From: a virus
Virus record (IMG/VR): IMGVR_UViG_3300027659_000001
Span: 1 to 39,597 of that record
Length of the DNA: 39,597 nt
Direction: 5' to 3' (one strand)
The notes beneath the pieces are model-generated. The model was given only the letters and a program-made list of their open reading frames with translations. It was not told the DNA's origin and did not search any database. A program made the translations under genes and the position numbers. Shown piece by piece: positions 3,234 to 25,431 of this stretch. Position 1 is the first letter of the stretch. Each line of letters opens with the position of its first letter.

Positions 3234-3472
3234 TACATACAATCCATTCCTATATCATCTATTGGTGTGGGTAGGGTTACCAATGAGCCACAATCTACAC
3301 ACTCACCATCTAAAAAGTAAAATGCTATCTCGCCAGATTCAAAGGCTACTATTGCTGTAAATAATTGTGAACCACATACACAGATATCTCCAATGGGATG
3401 ACCACGTAAATCCATAGCATTGGTGTAATCTTTTTGAAATAAATCTTTTATTTCTTTAGGCTCTTGTGTCAT
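3233..3472 (-). CDS. Small cysteine-pair protein, hypothetical
   Basis: The protein has 79 residues starting MTQEPKEIKDLF. Two cysteine pairs (CVC and CVDC, about 26 residues apart) flank a beta-rich stretch, which suggests a zinc ribbon. The start at 3472 overlaps the upstream sigma-like gene by 17 bases; in-frame ATGs further upstream at 3484 and 3517 are possible but lie deeper in that gene, and no start has a strong ribosome site. The gene ends in TAATG shared with the FmdB gene. No family was recognised. Confidence 0.65.
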   Translation of the reverse strand: MTQEPKEIKDLFQKDYTNAMDLRGHPIGDICVCGSQLFTAIVAFESGEIAFYFLDGECVDCGSLVTLPTPIDDIGMDCM

Positions 3473-4124
3473 CTTCTTCTTCATCTTGTTCTTTATCCAC
3501 GAGATTATCTGTATCATTAAACGACCTCCAACCTCCTAGTATTCTGATTAAAGAATTAATTGCACGGTTAACTCTCATGCGTGCACCATCAGCAGAGGTA
3601 TTTAATTCTTTACCAAGTTCTGTCCACTCGCAATTTTCTATTGTAAATTTTAATCTTAAAATATTTTGTTTGGCCTCTGGCAACTGGTTGAATGCTTTTT
3701 CTATATCTGACCTAAGTACTAGCCAGTTAGTTCCATCTGTAACCTCACCTGATTTACCAAACTGAAAGTTAAGGTCTTGTATCTTGCTTGGTATCTCATA
3801 ACTATCTGCCAAAATAGATGGAAGAAATGCTTCAATAACTGATGGGTCATAGTAATAAAGGTCAACCATATCGTAGCCAAACTTACGGGCTTTTTCTTTT
3901 TCACAATAAGTTATGGCTGCATTGCGTAATGATTTAGCAATAAGTTTTTCTTTATCTTTAGGTGGTAACTTAGACCACTCTGTATATTTATTTGGATGTG
4001 TAACAAACCAAAGCCATAAGATTTGTCTTATATCTGCAGGCTCAATTATAGAATATTTTCTGGCGTATTCCATGCCAAGGGTGGACACAAGCAAATCATA
4101 TTCCTGTACCCACGCCTCAGTCAT
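3456..4124 (-). CDS. Sigma-70-like RNA polymerase sigma factor
   Basis: The protein has 222 residues. The N-terminal third (DIRQILWLWF and LIAKSLRNAAITYCEKEKARK) resembles sigma region 2. The segment around residues 145-200 (AFNQLPEAKQNILRLKF, then WTELGKELNTSADGARMRVNRAI) is a region 4 helix-turn-helix of the kind that reads the -35 box. The C-terminus is very acidic (DKEQDEEEDDTR). It probably directs host RNA polymerase to phage promoters, alongside the WhiB protein two genes downstream; no phage RNA polymerase is seen. The middle part is divergent, so an anti-sigma or sigma-mimic role cannot be excluded. A three-base gap separates it from the upstream gene. Confidence 0.78.
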   Translation of the reverse strand: MTEAWVQEYDLLVSTLGMEYARKYSIIEPADIRQILWLWFVTHPNKYTEWSKLPPKDKEKLIAKSLRNAAITYCEKEKARKFGYDMVDLYYYDPSVIEAFLPSILADSYEIPSKIQDLNFQFGKSGEVTDGTNWLVLRSDIEKAFNQLPEAKQNILRLKFTIENCEWTELGKELNTSADGARMRVNRAINSLIRILGGWRSFNDTDNLVDKEQDEEEDDTRA

Positions 4125-12381: not shown

Positions 12382-12681
12382 TTACCCTACTGTTATTGAG
12401 TGGGCAACAATTTGTTGGCGGGTTTCCAGTTTATCTGGATTGCGGCGGTCAAAGTAAGTCTTTAAAGACCCTTTGACACGGATGATGTCAGAGACACCAT
12501 CACGTAATGGCACAGATAATAACTGTGTCTTTACTTCATCATCAAGAGCAACTATCTGGCCTGTGTATACACACTTGCCAAACGCATCTCTTTGGCTGAT
12601 ACTTGCTAGTAACACTTTATAGTTACTAGTTCCTGCTTCACGAACTGACTTTATATAGCCAGTTATGTCTACATTATTCAT
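12382..12681 (-). CDS. OB-fold, single-strand DNA-binding-like protein
   Basis: The protein has 99 residues, starting MNNVDITGYIKSVREAG; GGAGATAGAC supports this start rather than the in-frame ATG 18 bases earlier. The strand pattern (ITGYIKSV, YKVLLASIS, VYTGQIVAL, IIRVKGSLKTYFDRRN, RQQIVAHSITV) is that of an OB fold of SSB type. It may coat single-stranded DNA during replication. A second OB-like protein is encoded at 13897-14202. The assignment rests on pattern only. Confidence 0.6.
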   Translation of the reverse strand: MNNVDITGYIKSVREAGTSNYKVLLASISQRDAFGKCVYTGQIVALDDEVKTQLLSVPLRDGVSDIIRVKGSLKTYFDRRNPDKLETRQQIVAHSITVG

Positions 12682-12707
12682 GTCTATCTCCTTATTCATT
12701 TAGGGCG

Positions 12708-13290: not shown

Positions 13291-13605
13291 TTATATCTCC
13301 TTATCATTACGCTTTATTACTTTAATAAAGCGGCTAATCCACACCATGTCCAGCGGGTTAGTCAAGGGCGAGCAATTAGTTATCATTGACTGCGACCCCT
13401 TGACGAACCCATCTTGCTGGGCATGGTATTTTTGGGCCGCTTTAGTAAGGCGTAAGGCAGAGTTATATTGTGTATAACATATTGATATGGGGCTAGTGCT
13501 GTGTGTGTGTATCATTGACTCGTCAAACACATATGGTCTTATCATAGATTTCTTTGTTTCACAAAGAAATCTAAGCGACTGGTTGGGCTGATAACTGGCT
13601 GTCAT
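13291..13605 (-). CDS. Doubtful 104-residue frame across structured DNA
   Basis: A frame from ATG 13605 (MTASYQPNQSLRFLCE) runs to TAA at 13291 and has AGGAAGG upstream. Against it, the composition is unusual (rich in Ser, Thr, Gln), much of it lies in a long hairpin (13327-13443) and a perfect 12-bp hairpin (13546-13572), and its first part belongs to the giant inverted repeat. If it is not a gene, 13288-13896 is wholly non-coding structured DNA. Confidence 0.3.
   Translation of the reverse strand: MTASYQPNQSLRFLCETKKSMIRPYVFDESMIHTHSTSPISICYTQYNSALRLTKAAQKYHAQQDGFVKGSQSMITNCSPLTNPLDMVWISRFIKVIKRNDKEI
13310..13443 (-). promoter_or_regulatory. Long imperfect hairpin with a competing small hairpin
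   Basis: Five paired blocks line up in order: AAAGCGGC (13327-13334) with GCCGCTTT (13436-13443), ACCATG with CATGGT, CCAGC with GCTGG, GGGTT with AACCC, and GTCAAGGG (13361-13368) with CCCTTGAC (13397-13404). A second hairpin, CGCTTTATTA (13310-13319) with TAATAAAGCG (13323-13332), uses some of the same bases, so the two cannot form together. On the minus strand this is the leader of the zinc-ribbon gene, so an attenuation-like switch or a structured RNA is possible. Confidence 0.55.
13546..13572. repeat. Perfect 12-bp hairpin
   Basis: AGATTTCTTTGT (13546-13557) and ACAAAGAAATCT (13561-13572) are exact inverted copies separated by TTC. It sits directly outside the left end of the giant inverted repeat. 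Confidence 0.75.
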
Positions 13606-13681
13606 AATGAGCACCTTCCTAAGTAATGACAAAGAAATCATGATGTTTAGTTCCAATACTTCGTAAGCGTAGAACCGATGA

Positions 13682-13791
13682 GAGCGGGCGCTCAGGTTTC
13701 CTTGGACTTTGGTCTGCTTGCAGACGCCAAAGGAATCGTTAGTATTTAAACGATTCGCAAAGGCTTGTCCTTTGCACTGCTCGCAGACGCC
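13682..13791. repeat. Array of small hairpins
   Basis: Four hairpins stand almost end to end: GAGCG/CGCTC (13682-13693), CTTTGG TCTGC with GCAGA CG CCAAAG (13707-13732), GAATCGTT/AACGATTC (13733-13756), and GCAAAGG/CCTTTGC (13757-13775). A 15-base near-repeat CTGC(T or C)(T or C)GCAGACGCC occurs at 13714-13728 and 13777-13791. No coding frame fits. It may be part of an origin, a structured RNA, or a nest of small palindromic elements. Confidence 0.7.
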
Positions 13792-13859
13792 AAGTTAAGC
13801 AATATGGATTGGAACAAACATCAAGGTTTCTTTCTTAGCCGTATTTAGTGGAGATAAAT

Positions 13860-13890
13860 AAAAAGGGCTAACTGATTTCTCAGTTAGCCC
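13860..13890 (-). terminator. Rho-independent terminator of the SSB-like gene
   Basis: GGGCTAACTGA (13865-13875) pairs perfectly with TCAGTTAGCCC (13880-13890) around a four-base loop, followed on the minus strand by five Ts and then ATTT. It lies seven bases after the stop codon of the SSB-like gene, so that gene appears to be transcribed largely on its own. Confidence 0.92.
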
Positions 13891-13896
13891 GATTTA

Positions 13897-14202
13897 TTAG
13901 GCTACAGAATTTACAGTGAAATTCGTTAGCCAGGTCTTATCAGGTGTTTGAGAAGTCCTGAACCAGCCTGAAACAGTAGCCACTGGACGCTTTGCGTCTG
14001 CACCAGCAACTCTAGGAGTTGAATCTAGCAGTTTTGCCAGTGGCTCCACTGCGGTGAATGTAATGAACGGCAAAGATGCTTGGAATTTGCCTTCCTCATT
14101 ACGGAGAATCAATACGCCCTTTGCGTATTGATTGCTGTTCTTGGCTGTCTTGATTTCAAGACCAGCCAGTTCAGCGTTCTGAAATGTTACTTCGTGTGAC
14201 AT
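13897..14202 (-). CDS. OB-fold, single-strand DNA-binding-like protein in the repeat
   Basis: The protein has 101 residues, starting MSHEVTFQNAELAGLEIKT. Strand pattern and ending (RPVATVSGWFRTSQTP, then TWLTNFTVNSVA) suggest an SSB-type OB fold. An AGG lies eight bases before the ATG. The coding DNA is full of small hairpins: CAATACGC/GCGTATTG (14110-14130), GGCAAA/TTTGCC (14069-14091), CAACTC/GAGTTG (14007-14021), GACGC/GCGTC (13986-13998), and one across the stop codon (13900-13931). A decayed inverted copy lies at 14361-14688. It is closed by its own strong terminator, so it may be expressed at a high level and independently of the early operon. Confidence 0.72.
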   Translation of the reverse strand: MSHEVTFQNAELAGLEIKTAKNSNQYAKGVLILRNEEGKFQASLPFITFTAVEPLAKLLDSTPRVAGADAKRPVATVSGWFRTSQTPDKTWLTNFTVNSVA

Positions 14203-14235
14203 TTCTACCTGCTTTCTGCCAGTTTTTTCTGGCAG

Positions 14236-14319
14236 GCATCAGATAACACAGGGGTGGTTCCTGCTGTCAAGGAATGTCTTTCCAATTCCTTGATGGCAGG
14301 TGCCCCTGTGTTATGATGC
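14236..14319. repeat. 84-bp central palindrome
   Basis: GCATCA, ATAACACAGGGG, CCTGC and TCAAGGAAT on the left pair with ATTCCTTGA, GCAGG, CCCCTGTGTTAT and GATGC on the right, leaving a nine-base loop near 14276-14284. It is flanked on the left by CTGCCAG/CTGGCAG (14216-14235) with a run of six Ts, and on the right by the inverted counterpart. It is the centre of the giant inverted repeat and could extrude as a cruciform or act as a barrier or terminator between divergent units. Confidence 0.85.
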
Positions 14320-14360
14320 GCTTCTGTCAGAAAAAAGGCAGAATAGCAGGTGTCTCAGAA

Positions 14361-14688
14361 ATGTCATGACGAAGTGCTTTACATTTCAGGTTGCTGAATC
14401 TGGCAGTCTTGGAATCAGGTTAGACAGCCAGTTCAGAACAGTAATCAAACGCAAGGTCAAGGGCGTTTGATGACACCGTAATGGGGAACTCTAGGCAAAG
14501 GACAAGCCTTTGCCACCAGTTCATTACAGGCAACGCAGTAGCCACGCTAGCATAACTGCTTCAACTCTGACGAGTTGATGAGCAGATGCCAGCGTCAGGC
14601 TACAGTTTCGCTTAGGCTGGTTCAGGCTTATCAGACACGAAGTCTGATAAGACGGCTATCAATTTCTTAACAGGAAATTGTAGCCGAA
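14361..14688 (+). pseudogene. Decayed inverted copy of the SSB-like gene
   Basis: Read on the plus strand this follows the 13897-14202 gene from its ATGTCA start to its GTAGCC end, with shared blocks such as GACGAAGT/CACGAAGT, ACATTTCAG, AGACAGCCA, CCGTAATG, GTTCATTACA and AGGCTGGTTCAGG in the same order. The third codon is TGA and there are many insertions, so it cannot encode the protein. The substituted and inserted bases often complete local hairpins, for example a perfect 10-bp stem at 14627-14651. The copy includes the terminator counterpart at 14688-14729. Confidence 0.75.
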
Positions 14689-14857
14689 TTAAATTGGGCA
14701 ACTGATTAGAAATCAGTTAGCAATTTAATTTATCGGAACCTCTCTGGCGCTCTCATTTAAATAGTTAGCCAGAGGGTCAGTACTGATTAGCGAACTGGAA
14801 CGGTACTGACAGCGCTATCAGCCCGTAAGCCGAAGGGTCTAAATGACCCTAGGCTTA
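14688..14857. repeat. Hairpin series in the right arm
   Basis: ATTAAATTG/CAATTTAAT plus AACTGATT/AATCAGTT (14688-14729), CTCTGGC/GCCAGAG (14742-14774), GTCAGTAC/GTACTGAC (14776-14810), and TAAGCC AGGGTC with GACCCT GGCTTA (14826-14857). No gene is visible. The first is the counterpart of the terminator at 13860-13890 but has no T tract in a useful position. Confidence 0.7.
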
Positions 14858-14880
14858 TTAACCAGTCGCTAACCTATATA

Positions 14881-14952
14881 TGTACTCATCATAAAAGATT
14901 TTCCCGTACAGAAGTATCCCCAGTACAGATACAGTTTGTCCTATTTTGTACT
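14881..14952. promoter_or_regulatory. Cluster of four GTAC half-sites, possible operator
   Basis: TGTACT (14881), CGTACA (14905), AGTACA (14922) and TGTACT (14947) lie within 72 bases; TGTACT and AGTACA are reverse complements. The cluster sits between the structured region and the late promoter. A weak leftward promoter (minus-strand TATGAT at 14888-14893, with poor -35) could overlap it. A regulator binding here could set the early/late choice; this is inference. Confidence 0.4.
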
Positions 14953-14984
14953 GATTTTTGGCATACTAAAAAAATACTTTAAAA

Positions 14985-15027
14985 CAAAACGTTCGTTTTG
15001 ACTGTTTGAACGGGTTAATACTATATA
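14985..15027 (+). promoter_or_regulatory. Probable late promoter with overlapping palindrome
   Basis: TTGACT (14998-15003) and TATATA (15022-15027) form a sigma-70-type promoter with an 18-base spacer (17 if CTATAT is used), pointing at the terminase gene. A perfect palindrome CAAAACG TT CGTTTTG (14985-15000) covers the first half of the -35 box, as expected for a repressor or activator site. The 12-mer ATTTTTGGCATA lies 20 bases further upstream (14954-14965). Confidence 0.65.
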
Positions 15028-15050
15028 GAGGCTGTTTCTTTTTAACAGTA

Positions 15051-15071
15051 GCAAGTCCTTGGGGGACTTGC
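15051..15071 (+). promoter_or_regulatory. Leader hairpin upstream of terminase
   Basis: GCAAGTCC (15051-15058) pairs with GGACTTGC (15064-15071) around a five-base loop. It lies in the 5' leader, about 25-45 bases after the promoter, with no T tract. It may protect the transcript end or block translation from the upstream in-frame TTG at 15059. Confidence 0.5.
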
Positions 15072-15124
15072 GTTACAGACTGTATTTAACAACTGTTACA
15101 ACTGATGAAAACGGGACAGGAATA

Positions 15125-19378: not shown

Positions 19379-19798
19379 ATGTCAATGATGGAGCCAGGTG
19401 GATATAGAAAACCGACTAACCCAGCCCCAGTATCAGGCCCTGGCGCTCTTAGCCAGCGTACTGACGGGAGTCCAACACAACCCGCAACTTATATTTCAGG
19501 ATTACCACAAGGAGAAGGACAAGCAACCTACGACCAACAATTAGCAGCGCCTATGATGGGTGCTGTAAAAATGTCAGATATTAATATGGATATTAGTACT
19601 ACTGATTTAGATGCACCATCAGAATTTCCTAATGAAGAAATACATCATGGAGCATCATGGGGTAATAGTCCAACTTTAAATCTTAATGCTGTTAGTGGTA
19701 TGGCTGGAACTAATCCTGTAAATGTAATTTATAGAGCAATGAGTATGGACACAACTGGAAGATTAGAAGCAATCTATAATAGAATAAATATTTACTAA
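19379..19798 (+). CDS. Hypothetical virion-region protein
   Basis: The protein has 139 residues. The N-terminal half is Pro/Gly-rich and probably disordered (MEPGGYRKPTNPAPVSGPGA, then SQRTDGSPTQPATYISGLPQ); the C-terminal part has a short helical end. It has AGGAGA upstream and ends TAATG with the giant gene. Its place between the Ntn hydrolase and the large virion proteins suggests a structural or assembly role. No family recognised. Confidence 0.7.
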   Translation: MSMMEPGGYRKPTNPAPVSGPGALSQRTDGSPTQPATYISGLPQGEGQATYDQQLAAPMMGAVKMSDINMDISTTDLDAPSEFPNEEIHHGASWGNSPTLNLNAVSGMAGTNPVNVIYRAMSMDTTGRLEAIYNRINIY

Positions 19799-22700
19799 TG
19801 TCACAAAATATGCCATTACCACCATTACAAGATAATCCTTTTAATTCACAACTTGCAGATGCAGAGCCATTGCTCTATGCAATTAGTAATTCTGGTCAAT
19901 GGAATTCAGAAGAACAGGCTGTAATAAATAATTTAACTGGTTATATAGCACTAGATAGTAAATTATTAACAATGGAAGATGTATCAAAAGCAAGAAAAGA
20001 ATATTCTAAATTTCCTAAAGCAACACAAGAATTTTTAAAACAATTAAATCCAGAAGCAGATTATCAACAACAACCTAGAAGTCTTGTAAGAAAAATTTTA
20101 TCAGTACCAGAGCAATTGTTTATTCAACCATTTAGAGAAGTTTTAGGTGGTATTGAACAATTTGGTAAATTACTTAAATCTGGTTATAAAGCAACTCAAG
20201 TATTTGAACAATCTATTAGTAAAGATTTAATGGATTTATTTACTAAAGGTGTACCAAGTAAACAAGGCCCTGATAAATTTGCAACTGCGGGCGAAACAAT
20301 GGACGCTTTTAAAAAAACATTAACTAGTAAATCTTGGTCCGACATATATGAAGGTACAAATATGTGGCGTGATTCTTCTCTTAAAGAACTTGAAAATAAA
20401 TATGGATATGCTGCATCTTATTTAGCCAAAGAATTAATTGATGGTGTAAAAGTAAGTGATATTATACGACAGTATCAAACAGAACAGGGTCAACTTGATA
20501 CACCATTTGTTAATGCTTTTCAAAGTTTTGCGGAAAACACTCCTGAATGGAATAAATTATATTTAGACCACAAAGATAAACAAATTAATCCAGGAAATGA
20601 TATACAAAATTTTTTAGATAAAAGATTTCCTGCTAAAGATTTTAGTCCTATTTGGAAAAGTACCTTAGGTACAATTCCGTTTATTCCTGTACCAGTTCCA
20701 GAAGAAGATAGATGGGCAGTTAAAAACTTAGGTCCTGAATATAAACAACAACCATGGGCTTCACTTTCTGGTCAGGTTAATTTTGGATATACATTAGCAA
20801 TTGACCCACTTACATATCTTACATTTGGTGGAAGTAAGTCTGCAATGGCTGCTGGAAAATTATCACAAAAACTTTATGATGATAATTCACTTAGAACAAT
20901 TAATGATTTATTTAATAATCCAATGTTTACTAATAAACATACTAAACTTGCAGAAGAAATTAATTTACTTAGAAAAGCAGAAGATGAAAAAGATGCTATT
21001 CAGGCAGGATTAATTAAAACTCGTATAGCCACATTACATCCAGAATATGACAATGATGTTGTGCTTAATCTTTTTACAAAAACAAAAGTTCAAAATGATA
21101 ATTTAGAAGAAGTATTTGTTACCGACCTTGACACTATGCGAAAATTTTTTAGTCGAGGCGATATGATGCATTACATTACCAATATGAAAGTTAATGGTAT
21201 AATTCAACAAAGAGCACACCATGTTGCTTTAGAGCGCAGAACAAGAGCACTTACTGATAGTTGGAAAATAGGATTTGACCAAGCCTTTAATGGAATTAGA
21301 GGAGATGTTTTAACGGGAAAAAAACCTATACCACTTGAAACTTCAAAGGTTATAAAGGCATGGGAAGAATATATTGTTAAAGATGTTGATATAAAATCAA
21401 TTGTTAAACCAGATAGCGATACTTTAAAAACTTTAACTTTACATAAAAATAATCTTACTAAAGCGTATAATAGATTATTTGCAAAACTACCTGCAAATAA
21501 ACCTATATACCATACAGACGAAGGTGTTGATTCATCATTAACCACTTTTAGACAACTAGCAAGATTTTTAACTGGAGATAAATTAGTTGCTGGTATACTT
21601 GCAGAAAAATTTAAATTTGCTGCTCAAGAAGATAGACTTCATACTCTTAAAGTAATGTATGGTATGTACCTTGATAAAATAGGTTTAACCTCAACAGCAA
21701 ATGGAGTAACTGCAAAACGTGCTATATTAGAGGGAGTGTTTGGTTCTCAATTTGGATTAAGAACAATAACTAATATAGAAATTCCTAAACACATGGATAA
21801 GACAGCATTAAGTTTAGAAGATGTTGGAATGAGTTTACCGCCTGCTGCTAGTCAAATATTTCATTTAAAGCCAGCAATTTCTCAAATTCCTTTTGATGAT
21901 GTACTTAAACAAACTTATGATTTAGGTGGCATGGACCGCCCAGTAACAGGTATATATAAAGAAAAAGGTGTACGAGGTACATTAAATATTGCAAATAATA
22001 TAGCAGTAAATGCAGGAGCATTCTCAACTTATAATAGTGGATTACGTGCTATTCAAACTGGTTGGACTGGTGCTGTATTACTTCCCAAAATTGGTTTTAA
22101 AGCATCCTTTGACCACGTTGTTGTAGGCTTTCTTGTAAATGCCCCTGCTGAAATAATTGGTTTATTAAATAGAAAAGGTGCAAATTTATCTGCAGCAATG
22201 CAGGCAAAAACTGGTAGTAAAGAAAGTCAAGGATTACTTAAAGGTTGGTTCCTTAGTAAAATTGGAAAGAACCCAGCAGAAGCAATTTCTATTGCTGAAA
22301 GAAAAGCCCTTATGGGTATTGAAAATGTATCAACAACCTATACACTAGAAAGTGGATTAACAGTAACTGTTAAAGAATCTTTCCCAATAGGAAAAATGTT
22401 TGAAGGTACTTTTACTGAACGAGTTTCTAGAACTGCACTTGAAAAATTTACTAAGTTAAAAGGTGATGATTTAGAACATGCAGTTGACTTGTTTGCTTTA
22501 AATCCTCATAGTATTGAAGGAGTTACAAAATCAGCAGTTGCTGCTACTTTTGCTAATCAAATACCAGAGGGTAGTATTGCTAAAGAATTATATGGTCAAT
22601 CATCTTTTTCTTTATTTTTAGAAGAACAAGGTTTAAAACAAACTGGTAAATATATAATTGATGAAGCCAATGCTATAACAGATAGTAATAGAATATTTGC

Positions 22701-25431
22701 TCACATGAATGCATTTCGTCAACATTTTGCATTTAATAAAATAGGTTCAATAGATTTTGGTTCTGCTTTCTTTACCAACAATGGTTTAAAAACAACTGAT
22801 GATGTTGAAAATTTTGTTACTCAACTTATGGGTCAAGTTGGTTGGGTTAAAAATTCATCTGGTAGTTATGTTGCCAAGGGTGGCGGTGTTAAGAAAACTA
22901 AAGATGGTAAAGTAATTATTGATGATAAAAAATCTTTAGCAAAAATTAAAGAATTTAATGGCAGTTGGCTTAAGACATCTAATTATAAAGCAACAGGTTT
23001 AACAGATGCTCAAATAAGCGAACAAATTATTCGTGGCAGTATGGCAGAAATGTATACCATATGGCATGGTAGCGCTAAAGGATTTAATGCAGATTTAATA
23101 GAAGCATTAACAATGAAAATAAATGCTGTTAAAAAAATTCTAGGTAAAGATGTTCCAGGTGAAACAGATTTAGAAAAAGCATTACGTTTAAAAAATCTTA
23201 AAGAACAAGCAACTTTAACTTATCAAATTGATACATTAACTGTTGATGAGTTTGCACAACTTACTAAGAATAATCCTTTAAAGGGTACTATAAAAACAGA
23301 TATTGATTTTCCAGAACTTGCAAATACTAGAACTAAACCATTTGAAAAATTAGGTAAAATGGGTGCTAGATTTTGGGAAGCAATGGATAAACAAATAGGT
23401 GATTTTTATAGTTCTGATATTTATATGATTAAATATTTAGAAAATCGTAAACGTTATAAAAATTTTGAAAATAAATATTATAACGAAATTCGTGAGGCAA
23501 GTATAGAAAATGCTTTAGAAAATTTTTCTAAACTTACACCAAAACAAATAAAAATAATTGATGATAGTGCAAAACTACAAGCAAAACATTATTATAATGG
23601 TGTAGCACAAAGCAATGCTATGAACGAAGTACTAATGTATATAGATAATCCAGCAATTAAAAATCAAATTGATTTTAGTGCACGAGTAACTGGTAGATTT
23701 ATTAGAGCAACAAATGATTACGCTAGACGTTTAGTACGATATATGAGTCAAAATCCAGACCAAGTTATTTTTAGAGGTGGCTTATATGTTAATGCCTCTA
23801 ATGGTACTGGCCTTCTTTATGAAGACCAAAATGGTGTTCAATATATAATGATTCCAAATGATACTATGTTTTGGAAAATGGTTGCACCAACAATAGCATC
23901 CCTTGCTAATCCTTTAAATGCATTAGGTGGATTAAAAAGAGGAGTAATGGATGAAGACTGGAGTTTCTTTAAACAACCAGAATGGAATCAATATACTCTT
24001 AAGGTATCTTTATTAAATCCATCCTATGCCGAGGGTGCTGGTATGTGGACATTAGTAGGACCAACAATTGCTACACCAGTTTTGGCTAGTAAGGCTTTAA
24101 TACAAAACGTAAGCAGAAGTATAGATACAAAATTTTTTGGTTATGATGTAGGTGCTGCTGGTATAAAGTTTTCTGAAGGATTAGATAATTGGATACTTGG
24201 CCCACAAAGTGATAACACTACATGGGCACGGGCTTTAATACCAGGCAATTTAACAAACTTATATAATCAACTTCCTATTGAACAAAAGCAAGGCCTAGAA
24301 GTAAATATAATGTTAAGGGCTTTAGTAGCATTACAATCTAATCCGCTTACAAAGGTATCTGGTGATGACCTTAGGGATGAAGAAAAAATGCAAAAATTTA
24401 TTGAGAGACTAAGAATTGCTTCTCATAATATTGTAGCAATAACTGCTGGCTTTAATACACTTTCTCCTGTTCCGTTGGGAACAACAGAATCAGGTATTCC
24501 AGATGTTTTAAGAAAACAAGGCATAACTACCTTTAATCAATTTTGGGGAGAAGTTGTTCGTGGTGCCTTTGCTAGCAATTCGGAAAATGGATTTTATTTA
24601 CACGACCCATTAGCCCTTGCTACTAATATGTACATTGGACAATACCCAGATAAACTTGTTCATACTGTATCTAAAACTTCTAAAGCAGGCAAACGTGCAA
24701 TTAATATTACTAAAGAAACAAAAAAGTGGAGTATAGAAAATAGACAATTAATAGAAAGATATCCAGACGCAGCATGGGTATTTGCTCCACATATTGGTGA
24801 GTATGACCCAGGCGTAATATCTTTTTTACAGGCTAGTGACATACTTCCTCCAAAAGAAAATTTATTTGCTGATGGTAAAAAAGGTCTTAAAAGATATATT
24901 ATAGATGTTACTGCTGCTAAAGATATTTATCAATATTATAAAATAGATAAAGATGTTTATAAAATATTAAATGACCCAAATAATCTTGAAAGAAATAGTG
25001 CTACTTATCGTAGGCAATTATTGGCTGAAGCAGAAACAAGAAAAAATGTAATGAAGACTGGCAATTGGGCTTTAGCAAAAGCACTAACAAATGAATCATT
25101 AGAACAAAGACAAGAACAACTTGATAAATTTGTACAATTAGAAAATATGATTAAAGATAAACAATTTATTAAAACATTTCCATCAGCGCAATTAGAGTTA
25201 TTGCAAACAGTAGTTGGTAAATCAAGGGTAATGATAAATACATTTACGGACCGTAATGTTAGAACTCAATTTGAAGGTATGGATGAATTGGAAAAAATAA
25301 AAATGGATGGTATAAAAAATATAGAAAGCGTAGTAAAAGGCAATCCAGCATTAGTGGATGCATATTCACTATTCATTCGTCCACTATTAGATGAATTATT
25401 ATCAACTCCTCTAAAAGAAATGACTAAATAA
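19798..25431 (+). CDS. Giant (1877-residue) putative internal virion / ejection protein
   Basis: This single frame takes up one seventh of the genome. It is largely helical and rich in Lys, Asn and Ile. Several amphipathic or hydrophobic stretches are visible (AVLLPKIGFKASFDHVVVGF near 760; MWTLVGPTIATPVLASKAL near 1420), as expected for proteins ejected into or through the host membrane. No peptidase, transglycosylase or coiled tape-measure repeat was recognised. It starts in a TAATG overlap without a ribosome site, as do the next two genes, so the three are probably translated as a coupled set. Its size and position suggest an internal virion protein; a different structural role is possible. 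Confidence 0.7.
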   Translation: MSQNMPLPPLQDNPFNSQLADAEPLLYAISNSGQWNSEEQAVINNLTGYIALDSKLLTMEDVSKARKEYSKFPKATQEFLKQLNPEADYQQQPRSLVRKILSVPEQLFIQPFREVLGGIEQFGKLLKSGYKATQVFEQSISKDLMDLFTKGVPSKQGPDKFATAGETMDAFKKTLTSKSWSDIYEGTNMWRDSSLKELENKYGYAASYLAKELIDGVKVSDIIRQYQTEQGQLDTPFVNAFQSFAENTPEWNKLYLDHKDKQINPGNDIQNFLDKRFPAKDFSPIWKSTLGTIPFIPVPVPEEDRWAVKNLGPEYKQQPWASLSGQVNFGYTLAIDPLTYLTFGGSKSAMAAGKLSQKLYDDNSLRTINDLFNNPMFTNKHTKLAEEINLLRKAEDEKDAIQAGLIKTRIATLHPEYDNDVVLNLFTKTKVQNDNLEEVFVTDLDTMRKFFSRGDMMHYITNMKVNGIIQQRAHHVALERRTRALTDSWKIGFDQAFNGIRGDVLTGKKPIPLETSKVIKAWEEYIVKDVDIKSIVKPDSDTLKTLTLHKNNLTKAYNRLFAKLPANKPIYHTDEGVDSSLTTFRQLARFLTGDKLVAGILAEKFKFAAQEDRLHTLKVMYGMYLDKIGLTSTANGVTAKRAILEGVFGSQFGLRTITNIEIPKHMDKTALSLEDVGMSLPPAASQIFHLKPAISQIPFDDVLKQTYDLGGMDRPVTGIYKEKGVRGTLNIANNIAVNAGAFSTYNSGLRAIQTGWTGAVLLPKIGFKASFDHVVVGFLVNAPAEIIGLLNRKGANLSAAMQAKTGSKESQGLLKGWFLSKIGKNPAEAISIAERKALMGIENVSTTYTLESGLTVTVKESFPIGKMFEGTFTERVSRTALEKFTKLKGDDLEHAVDLFALNPHSIEGVTKSAVAATFANQIPEGSIAKELYGQSSFSLFLEEQGLKQTGKYIIDEANAITDSNRIFAHMNAFRQHFAFNKIGSIDFGSAFFTNNGLKTTDDVENFVTQLMGQVGWVKNSSGSYVAKGGGVKKTKDGKVIIDDKKSLAKIKEFNGSWLKTSNYKATGLTDAQISEQIIRGSMAEMYTIWHGSAKGFNADLIEALTMKINAVKKILGKDVPGETDLEKALRLKNLKEQATLTYQIDTLTVDEFAQLTKNNPLKGTIKTDIDFPELANTRTKPFEKLGKMGARFWEAMDKQIGDFYSSDIYMIKYLENRKRYKNFENKYYNEIREASIENALENFSKLTPKQIKIIDDSAKLQAKHYYNGVAQSNAMNEVLMYIDNPAIKNQIDFSARVTGRFIRATNDYARRLVRYMSQNPDQVIFRGGLYVNASNGTGLLYEDQNGVQYIMIPNDTMFWKMVAPTIASLANPLNALGGLKRGVMDEDWSFFKQPEWNQYTLKVSLLNPSYAEGAGMWTLVGPTIATPVLASKALIQNVSRSIDTKFFGYDVGAAGIKFSEGLDNWILGPQSDNTTWARALIPGNLTNLYNQLPIEQKQGLEVNIMLRALVALQSNPLTKVSGDDLRDEEKMQKFIERLRIASHNIVAITAGFNTLSPVPLGTTESGIPDVLRKQGITTFNQFWGEVVRGAFASNSENGFYLHDPLALATNMYIGQYPDKLVHTVSKTSKAGKRAINITKETKKWSIENRQLIERYPDAAWVFAPHIGEYDPGVISFLQASDILPPKENLFADGKKGLKRYIIDVTAAKDIYQYYKIDKDVYKILNDPNNLERNSATYRRQLLAEAETRKNVMKTGNWALAKALTNESLEQRQEQLDKFVQLENMIKDKQFIKTFPSAQLELLQTVVGKSRVMINTFTDRNVRTQFEGMDELEKIKMDGIKNIESVVKGNPALVDAYSLFIRPLLDELLSTPLKEMTK

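Follow-up and report, generated by a model that had tools for sequence, protein, structure and literature searches.

A degenerate inverted gene duplication carrying a conserved hairpin array in a group of freshwater phages

Genome context of the locus

The window, i.e. the whole stretch of DNA analysed here, comprises 39,597 nt (IMG/VR virus record IMGVR_UViG_3300027659_000001, positions 1–39,597) and contains two divergent transcription units. The leftward unit encodes a sigma factor, a primase, a DnaB-like helicase and an exonuclease, and the rightward unit encodes the terminase, portal, capsid and tail genes. The sigma factor (3456–4124; PHROG 354) may set the promoter specificity of the late unit. 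Based on the terminase, the nearest named isolates are Streptomyces phages (46% identity), and the genome contains matches to DUF4192 and DUF932, from which the host is probably actinobacterial. The viruses that carry the region described below form a freshwater group.

Several other features of the genome stand out. A 1877-aa ORF (19798–25431) has a GC content of 30–34%, compared to ~39% for the genome, and has no Pfam match. A second small ORF (12382–12699) has a weak match to DUF3217 (E 0.011), and the 250-nt stretch overlying it folds with a z-score of −5.2. A separate long hairpin of 125 nt (13323–13447, not assigned to a strand) is near-invariant in the module-bearing phages, with a fold z-score of approximately −8 to −10; in L004/L005, its stem differs by two-sided changes at two neighbouring pairs, and its core is matched exactly by seven contigs.

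The inverted duplication

The two transcription units diverge from an inverted duplication. Local alignment of the plus strand of 14276–15100 with the reverse complement of 13300–14284 scores 489.5, compared to 150±12 (maximum 193) for 200 dinucleotide shuffles and at most 187 for other segments of the window. This bears out the 1.3-kb degenerate inverted duplication that the original prediction had placed at 13574–14870, and disposes of the concern raised with it that the arms might be no more alike than shuffled sequences. The similarity is strongest in a well-aligned core centred near 14284, which BLAST recovers as a match of the window to its own reverse complement (13853–14734, 72% identity, E 2e-100). 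In this core, the left arm (13853–14284, minus strand) consists of half of a central palindrome, a promoter, a 5′ UTR, an ssb-like gene and an intrinsic terminator, and the right arm (14285–14734, plus strand) is a copy without coding capacity that has been remodelled into a hairpin array. One arm is therefore coding and the other is not, as had been predicted: the left arm contains an ORF of 101 aa, and the right arm lacks any ORF of 60 aa.

Past the terminators, the homology is weaker. The outer left arm (13574–13852, minus strand) is weakly homologous to the outer right arm (14735–14877, plus strand), which contains three further hairpins (at approximately 14741–14776, 14776–14810 and 14824–14857) and ends at the edge of the module at 14877. 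In relatives without an insertion of ~210 nt in the left arm, the outer arms score 37–46.5, compared to ~28±5 for shuffles, and the score exceeds all 300 shuffles in L008 only. In line with the original prediction, the blocks TATCAGCCC and AACCAGTCGCT are present on both sides (adjacent in the left arm, and separated by a 35-nt hairpin in the right arm). The insertion itself (13624–13836) contains repeated, partly hairpin-forming sequence and is present in the left outer arm of the window only, with a shorter version in L001.

The arms differ in a distinctive way. Aligned bases are 89–92% identical between arms, with 39–46 gap events per pair, approximately as many as substitutions (39 indel events and 41 substitutions in the window), and the small indels are often located in hairpin loops. 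The longest exact match between the arms of the window is 13 bp, compared to a simulated mean of 25 (P<0.001; P=0.017 when 50% more substitutions are simulated), and it is 12–14 bp in all eight phages tested, such that the differences are spaced more evenly than expected by chance. Long perfect inverted repeats are probably selected against, due to instability or recombination, with small indels as the means of avoiding them.

The coding arm

The 101-aa ORF (13897–14202, minus strand) is coding, differing from its counterpart in L006 by seven synonymous and two nonsynonymous changes. Its mRNA is dense in hairpins (fold z-score −8.2) and is followed by the intrinsic terminator (13865–13890, minus strand), which has 11 pairs and a T run, and carries a two-sided change in L004/L005. 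The designation of the protein as an SSB is unproven: it has no PHROG or Pfam match, it matches only designed repeat proteins in the PDB, and a comparison of its profile with small proteins encoded nearby in relatives gives a non-significant probability of 1%. The low-confidence AlphaFold2 model (pLDDT 41) has the element order b-b-b-a-b-b, which an OB fold would allow.

Constraint seems to act on the coding copy as well, as synonymous sites of the gene change less (7/74) than do loop positions in the right arm of the same module (43/184, p=0.009). Within the gene arm, the contrast between paired and unpaired positions is in the same direction, yet weak (p=0.07). The synonymous divergence of the gene (0.095) is below that of neighbouring genes (0.2–0.5), but we do not use this as proof of constraint, because the module is exchanged between phage backbones (see below) and the low divergence is therefore partly a matter of recency.

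The non-coding arm is a conserved hairpin array

The right arm folds with a z-score of −10, compared to a genome mean of −1.3±1.8 in 250-nt windows. In an alignment of 10 right arms, variation is seen in 16 of 367 paired columns and in 68 of 202 unpaired columns (p=2e-20), with the hairpins having been chosen by an RNA folding programme run on the same sequences. Between the window and L006, 8/356 paired positions (2.2%) have changed in this arm versus 43/184 unpaired positions (23%). In this contrast between paired and unpaired positions, the right arm behaves as an evolutionarily conserved structured element, at the level of either RNA or DNA. Two-sided changes inside the right arm are few (1/184 pairs), because the stems hardly vary at all.

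The fold of the array mirrors that of the gene. Hairpins of the ssb mRNA sit at places homologous to those of the right arm, and 61 base pairs are exactly common to both arms, compared to 24±10 in simulations that distribute as many changes as observed randomly along the sequence. Between the arms, 7/81 consensus pairs show two-sided differences, such as the joint loss of a T and the A paired to it from the stem AATCAATACGC/GCGTATTGATT versus ATCAAACGC/GCGTTTGAT. The right-arm counterpart of the ssb terminator (14687–14731, plus strand) has a longer stem and has lost the T run. Overall, the right arm folds with an energy of −155.6 kcal/mol, while simulated decay of a gene copy gives −104±8.5 (minimum −131). 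The search of Rfam 15 (including GOLLD and ROOL) gives no match to a known RNA family at the gathering score and only sub-threshold matches to miRNAs and CsrB; no tRNA or tmRNA was found.

A module exchanged between phage backbones

The left-arm gene is present in nine IMG/VR contigs, accompanied by the same right arm wherever the contig is long enough, and a 21-base right-arm pattern matches 11 contigs from separate metagenomes. The same arrangement, which the original prediction had proposed to look for in related phages, is thus present in independent contigs. Module and 101-aa protein have no copy in isolated phages, as judged by DNA and protein searches of 50,697 phage records, and neither the right-arm pattern nor the terminase is matched in genome contigs.

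A search with the terminase identified 473 relatives, the best 80 of which were fetched. Among the 67 of these with enough upstream sequence, the module is present in eight and absent in 59, and some of the relatives without it have terminases 94–95% identical to that of the window. Homology across the family (~60 relatives without the module) starts sharply at 14877, where the right arm ends and a terminase leader common to the whole phage family begins (14877–15124, plus strand). Read from these alignments, the region is a discrete module that ends sharply at 14877 on its right side. It has passed between phage backbones, as L003/L089 match the window at ~98% identity in the right arm and at only 83% in the terminase. 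It is single-copy, at one site in the window and one in a 39-kb relative, and does not show the more than one copy or location expected of a mobile element.

Phages without the module have in common a leader element of ~155 nt (TTAACTGAGGCGCC..GGCGCCGAAGACTG; L017:733–886 and its homologues), with two-sided changes in its first stem and no Rfam match. Its homology to positions 14735–14877 of the window rests on the last ~40 nt. We considered it as a nested structured RNA, but it is not clearly so, with only six consensus pairs among 30 aligned phages.

The central palindrome and the origin of the duplication

The two arms meet in a palindrome (14243–14314) with back-to-back −35 elements, which is found family-wide and whose arms covary. 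A rightward promoter is predicted at 14290–14317 (plus strand; TTGATG-16-TATGAT, with an extended −10 element, TG), matching the consensus at 9/12 positions plus the TG, and its −10 region is invariant in all copies read. The predicted leftward promoter (14242–14270, minus strand; TTGACA-17-TTATCT) has a weak −10 element. The promoter search gave five promoter-like sites, compared to 3.3±1.8 in shuffles, and the rightward promoter is to be read as a consensus match only.

Relatives without the duplication also have the palindrome (TGTCAA..TTGAC/T, with covarying arms) ahead of their terminase leader (seen upstream of the terminase in L058, L060, L063, L064, L076, L078 and L086), and in several relatives without the module it lies beside a small minus-strand gene. 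Because a palindromic divergent promoter is found there without the duplication, the simplest history, and a likely one, is that a fold-back event at the palindrome copied the leftward unit in the rightward direction. In the module clade, the central stem has changed blockwise on both sides (TCAAGGAAT/ATTCCTTGA versus TCAAATAAC/GTTATTTGA), the kind of multibase compensatory change that has been reported for template switching (PMC8794818).

A proposed structured RNA born from a protein gene, and its alternatives

We propose an inverted gene-copy module in which the right arm would be a structured RNA that mimics the ssb mRNA and acts ahead of the late genes, a proposal to which we give about an even chance of being correct. 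A small unit (promoter, ssb-like gene and terminator) would have been duplicated by fold-back at a pre-existing palindromic divergent promoter, as the palindrome shared with other relatives suggests. The right copy has lost its coding capacity and become a compact hairpin array that, as the comparison of the arms shows, keeps and improves the fold of the ssb mRNA. Transcribed rightward from the extended −10 promoter, it would form a structured leader or non-coding RNA of 550–800 nt, running into or ahead of the late operon. As a non-coding mimic of the ssb mRNA, this RNA would probably bind the partners of that mRNA, i.e. the small protein or a host factor, and could thereby link early ssb expression to late transcription. 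Evenly spaced small indels would hold the arms apart, probably since long perfect inverted repeats are unstable. We favour an RNA because the promoter is conserved, the array mirrors an mRNA, and conservation concerns short local hairpins instead of pairing between the arms. Short conserved hairpins, with evenly spaced arm-to-arm matches of at most 14 bp, are the opposite of what is expected for one large cruciform and better fit a structured transcript.

The original prediction had suggested a cis-acting DNA role for the repeat, such as an origin, a barrier to replication forks or transcription, or a recombination hot spot. Its account of a duplication, loss of coding on the right side and conservation agrees with our results, while the DNA role now stands as a rival that we consider unlikely, though far from negligible. 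In such a DNA-level element, hairpins and palindrome would extrude from single-stranded or supercoiled DNA and serve as an origin, a site of primosome loading, or a packaging or recombination signal. Wobble changes in the array without strand preference (6 GU versus 7 AC changes, a neutral result), the family-wide palindrome with its two-sided changes, and the presence of phage genes for a primase, a DnaB-like helicase and an exonuclease are all consistent with it. The GC skew, which had been put forward as a means to map the start of replication, changes sign here with a cumulative minimum near 14 kb, but this coincides with, and is accounted for by, the switch in gene orientation. Moreover, hallmarks of an origin were not found in the module, relatives with equally close terminases do without it, outward-facing promoters are predicted in each arm, and the left arm, which contains the same hairpins, is clearly a gene.

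Rather improbable, in our view, is a decoy for autoregulation, in which the small protein represses its own mRNA via the hairpins and the right-arm RNA titrates the protein. Despite being non-coding, the right arm retains the fold of the ssb mRNA along with much of its sequence, the module and the gene are found together wherever a contig is of sufficient length, and gp32 acts as an autogenous repressor of translation in both T4 and RB69 (PMC535899). However, the 101-aa protein is only putatively RNA-binding and its fold is uncertain, and gp32 operators are located at the initiation region, whereas here the hairpins extend along the whole gene.

Template switching is known to create and maintain hairpins (PMC8794818), and repeated switching in quasi-palindromes might have made the stems and keep correcting them with little function involved, which we regard as a poor prospect. 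Such a mutational origin is in line with the multi-base blocks that changed on the two sides of the central stem, and with a clustered change that perfects a stem in R6/R7, but homogenization alone would permit the stems to drift, and 351/367 paired columns are invariant. A decaying pseudogene copy, conserved merely by youth or recent exchange, is very improbable. The right arm does have gene homology with a broken frame, and the module has moved between backbones, as seen in L003/L089; it does not have the relaxed constraint of a pseudogene. Plain decay is ruled out by the ten-fold lower rate of change in paired than in unpaired positions of the same sequences (unless template-switch mutation alone makes that contrast) and by a fold energy far better than that of random decay, and the near-equal numbers of indels and substitutions in the window are unusual for neutral drift. 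Finally, inverted duplications are a frequent assembly artefact, yet a chimeric assembly has a negligible chance here and is excluded by the presence of the same junctions in contigs of many separate metagenomes, at 90–100% identity.

Returning to the proposed structured RNA, a broader and more tentative reading, which we would sooner doubt than assert, is that a phage non-coding RNA gene was born from a protein gene by fold-back at a divergent promoter, with selection acting on the parent for its protein as well as its RNA fold, and with arms that diverge just far enough to avoid a long perfect palindrome. If true, a dozen related phages still display the parent gene, the structured element derived from it and the mechanism of duplication together, which would allow direct study of how a large structured RNA originates and how its parent is constrained in both coding and structure. 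The module also illustrates how a compact phage genome can retain a large inverted repeat, namely with evenly spaced small indels that limit perfect matches to at most 14 bp.

Comparison with known systems

The put RNAs of phage HK022, which function in antitermination, are ~65 nt in length and form two stem-loops. Compared by description only, the right arm resembles these leaders as a proposed structured leader RNA that opens a long phage operon. On a larger scale, GOLLD and ROOL RNAs are often carried by phages or prophages. Together with OLE, they are large, ornate RNAs that are highly structured and non-coding (PMC12286853), and the right arm is similarly large, highly structured and proposed to be a non-coding RNA. 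Unlike these RNAs, it derives from a neighbouring protein gene, consists of a string of local hairpins ahead of a late operon and has no match in Rfam.

The left arm, in turn, resembles the gene 32 operators of T4 and RB69 as the structured mRNA of a phage ssb(-like) gene (PMC535899). Those operators each consist of one element in the initiation region. Here, hairpins are dense throughout the gene, which in addition has a separate non-coding copy. The module also has features of hairpins and quasi-palindromes born by template switching, in which inverted copies and multi-base compensatory changes create or perfect stems (PMC8794818, PMC7202029). In contrast to these single stems, a complete transcription unit has been duplicated here and remodelled along its length. 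The original prediction knew of no described phage element of this kind, and none was found in a limited and incomplete search of the open-access literature or in Rfam 15. The nearest known kinds are the large phage RNAs and the autogenous ssb operators, and neither kind represents a neighbouring gene copied in inverted, non-coding form.
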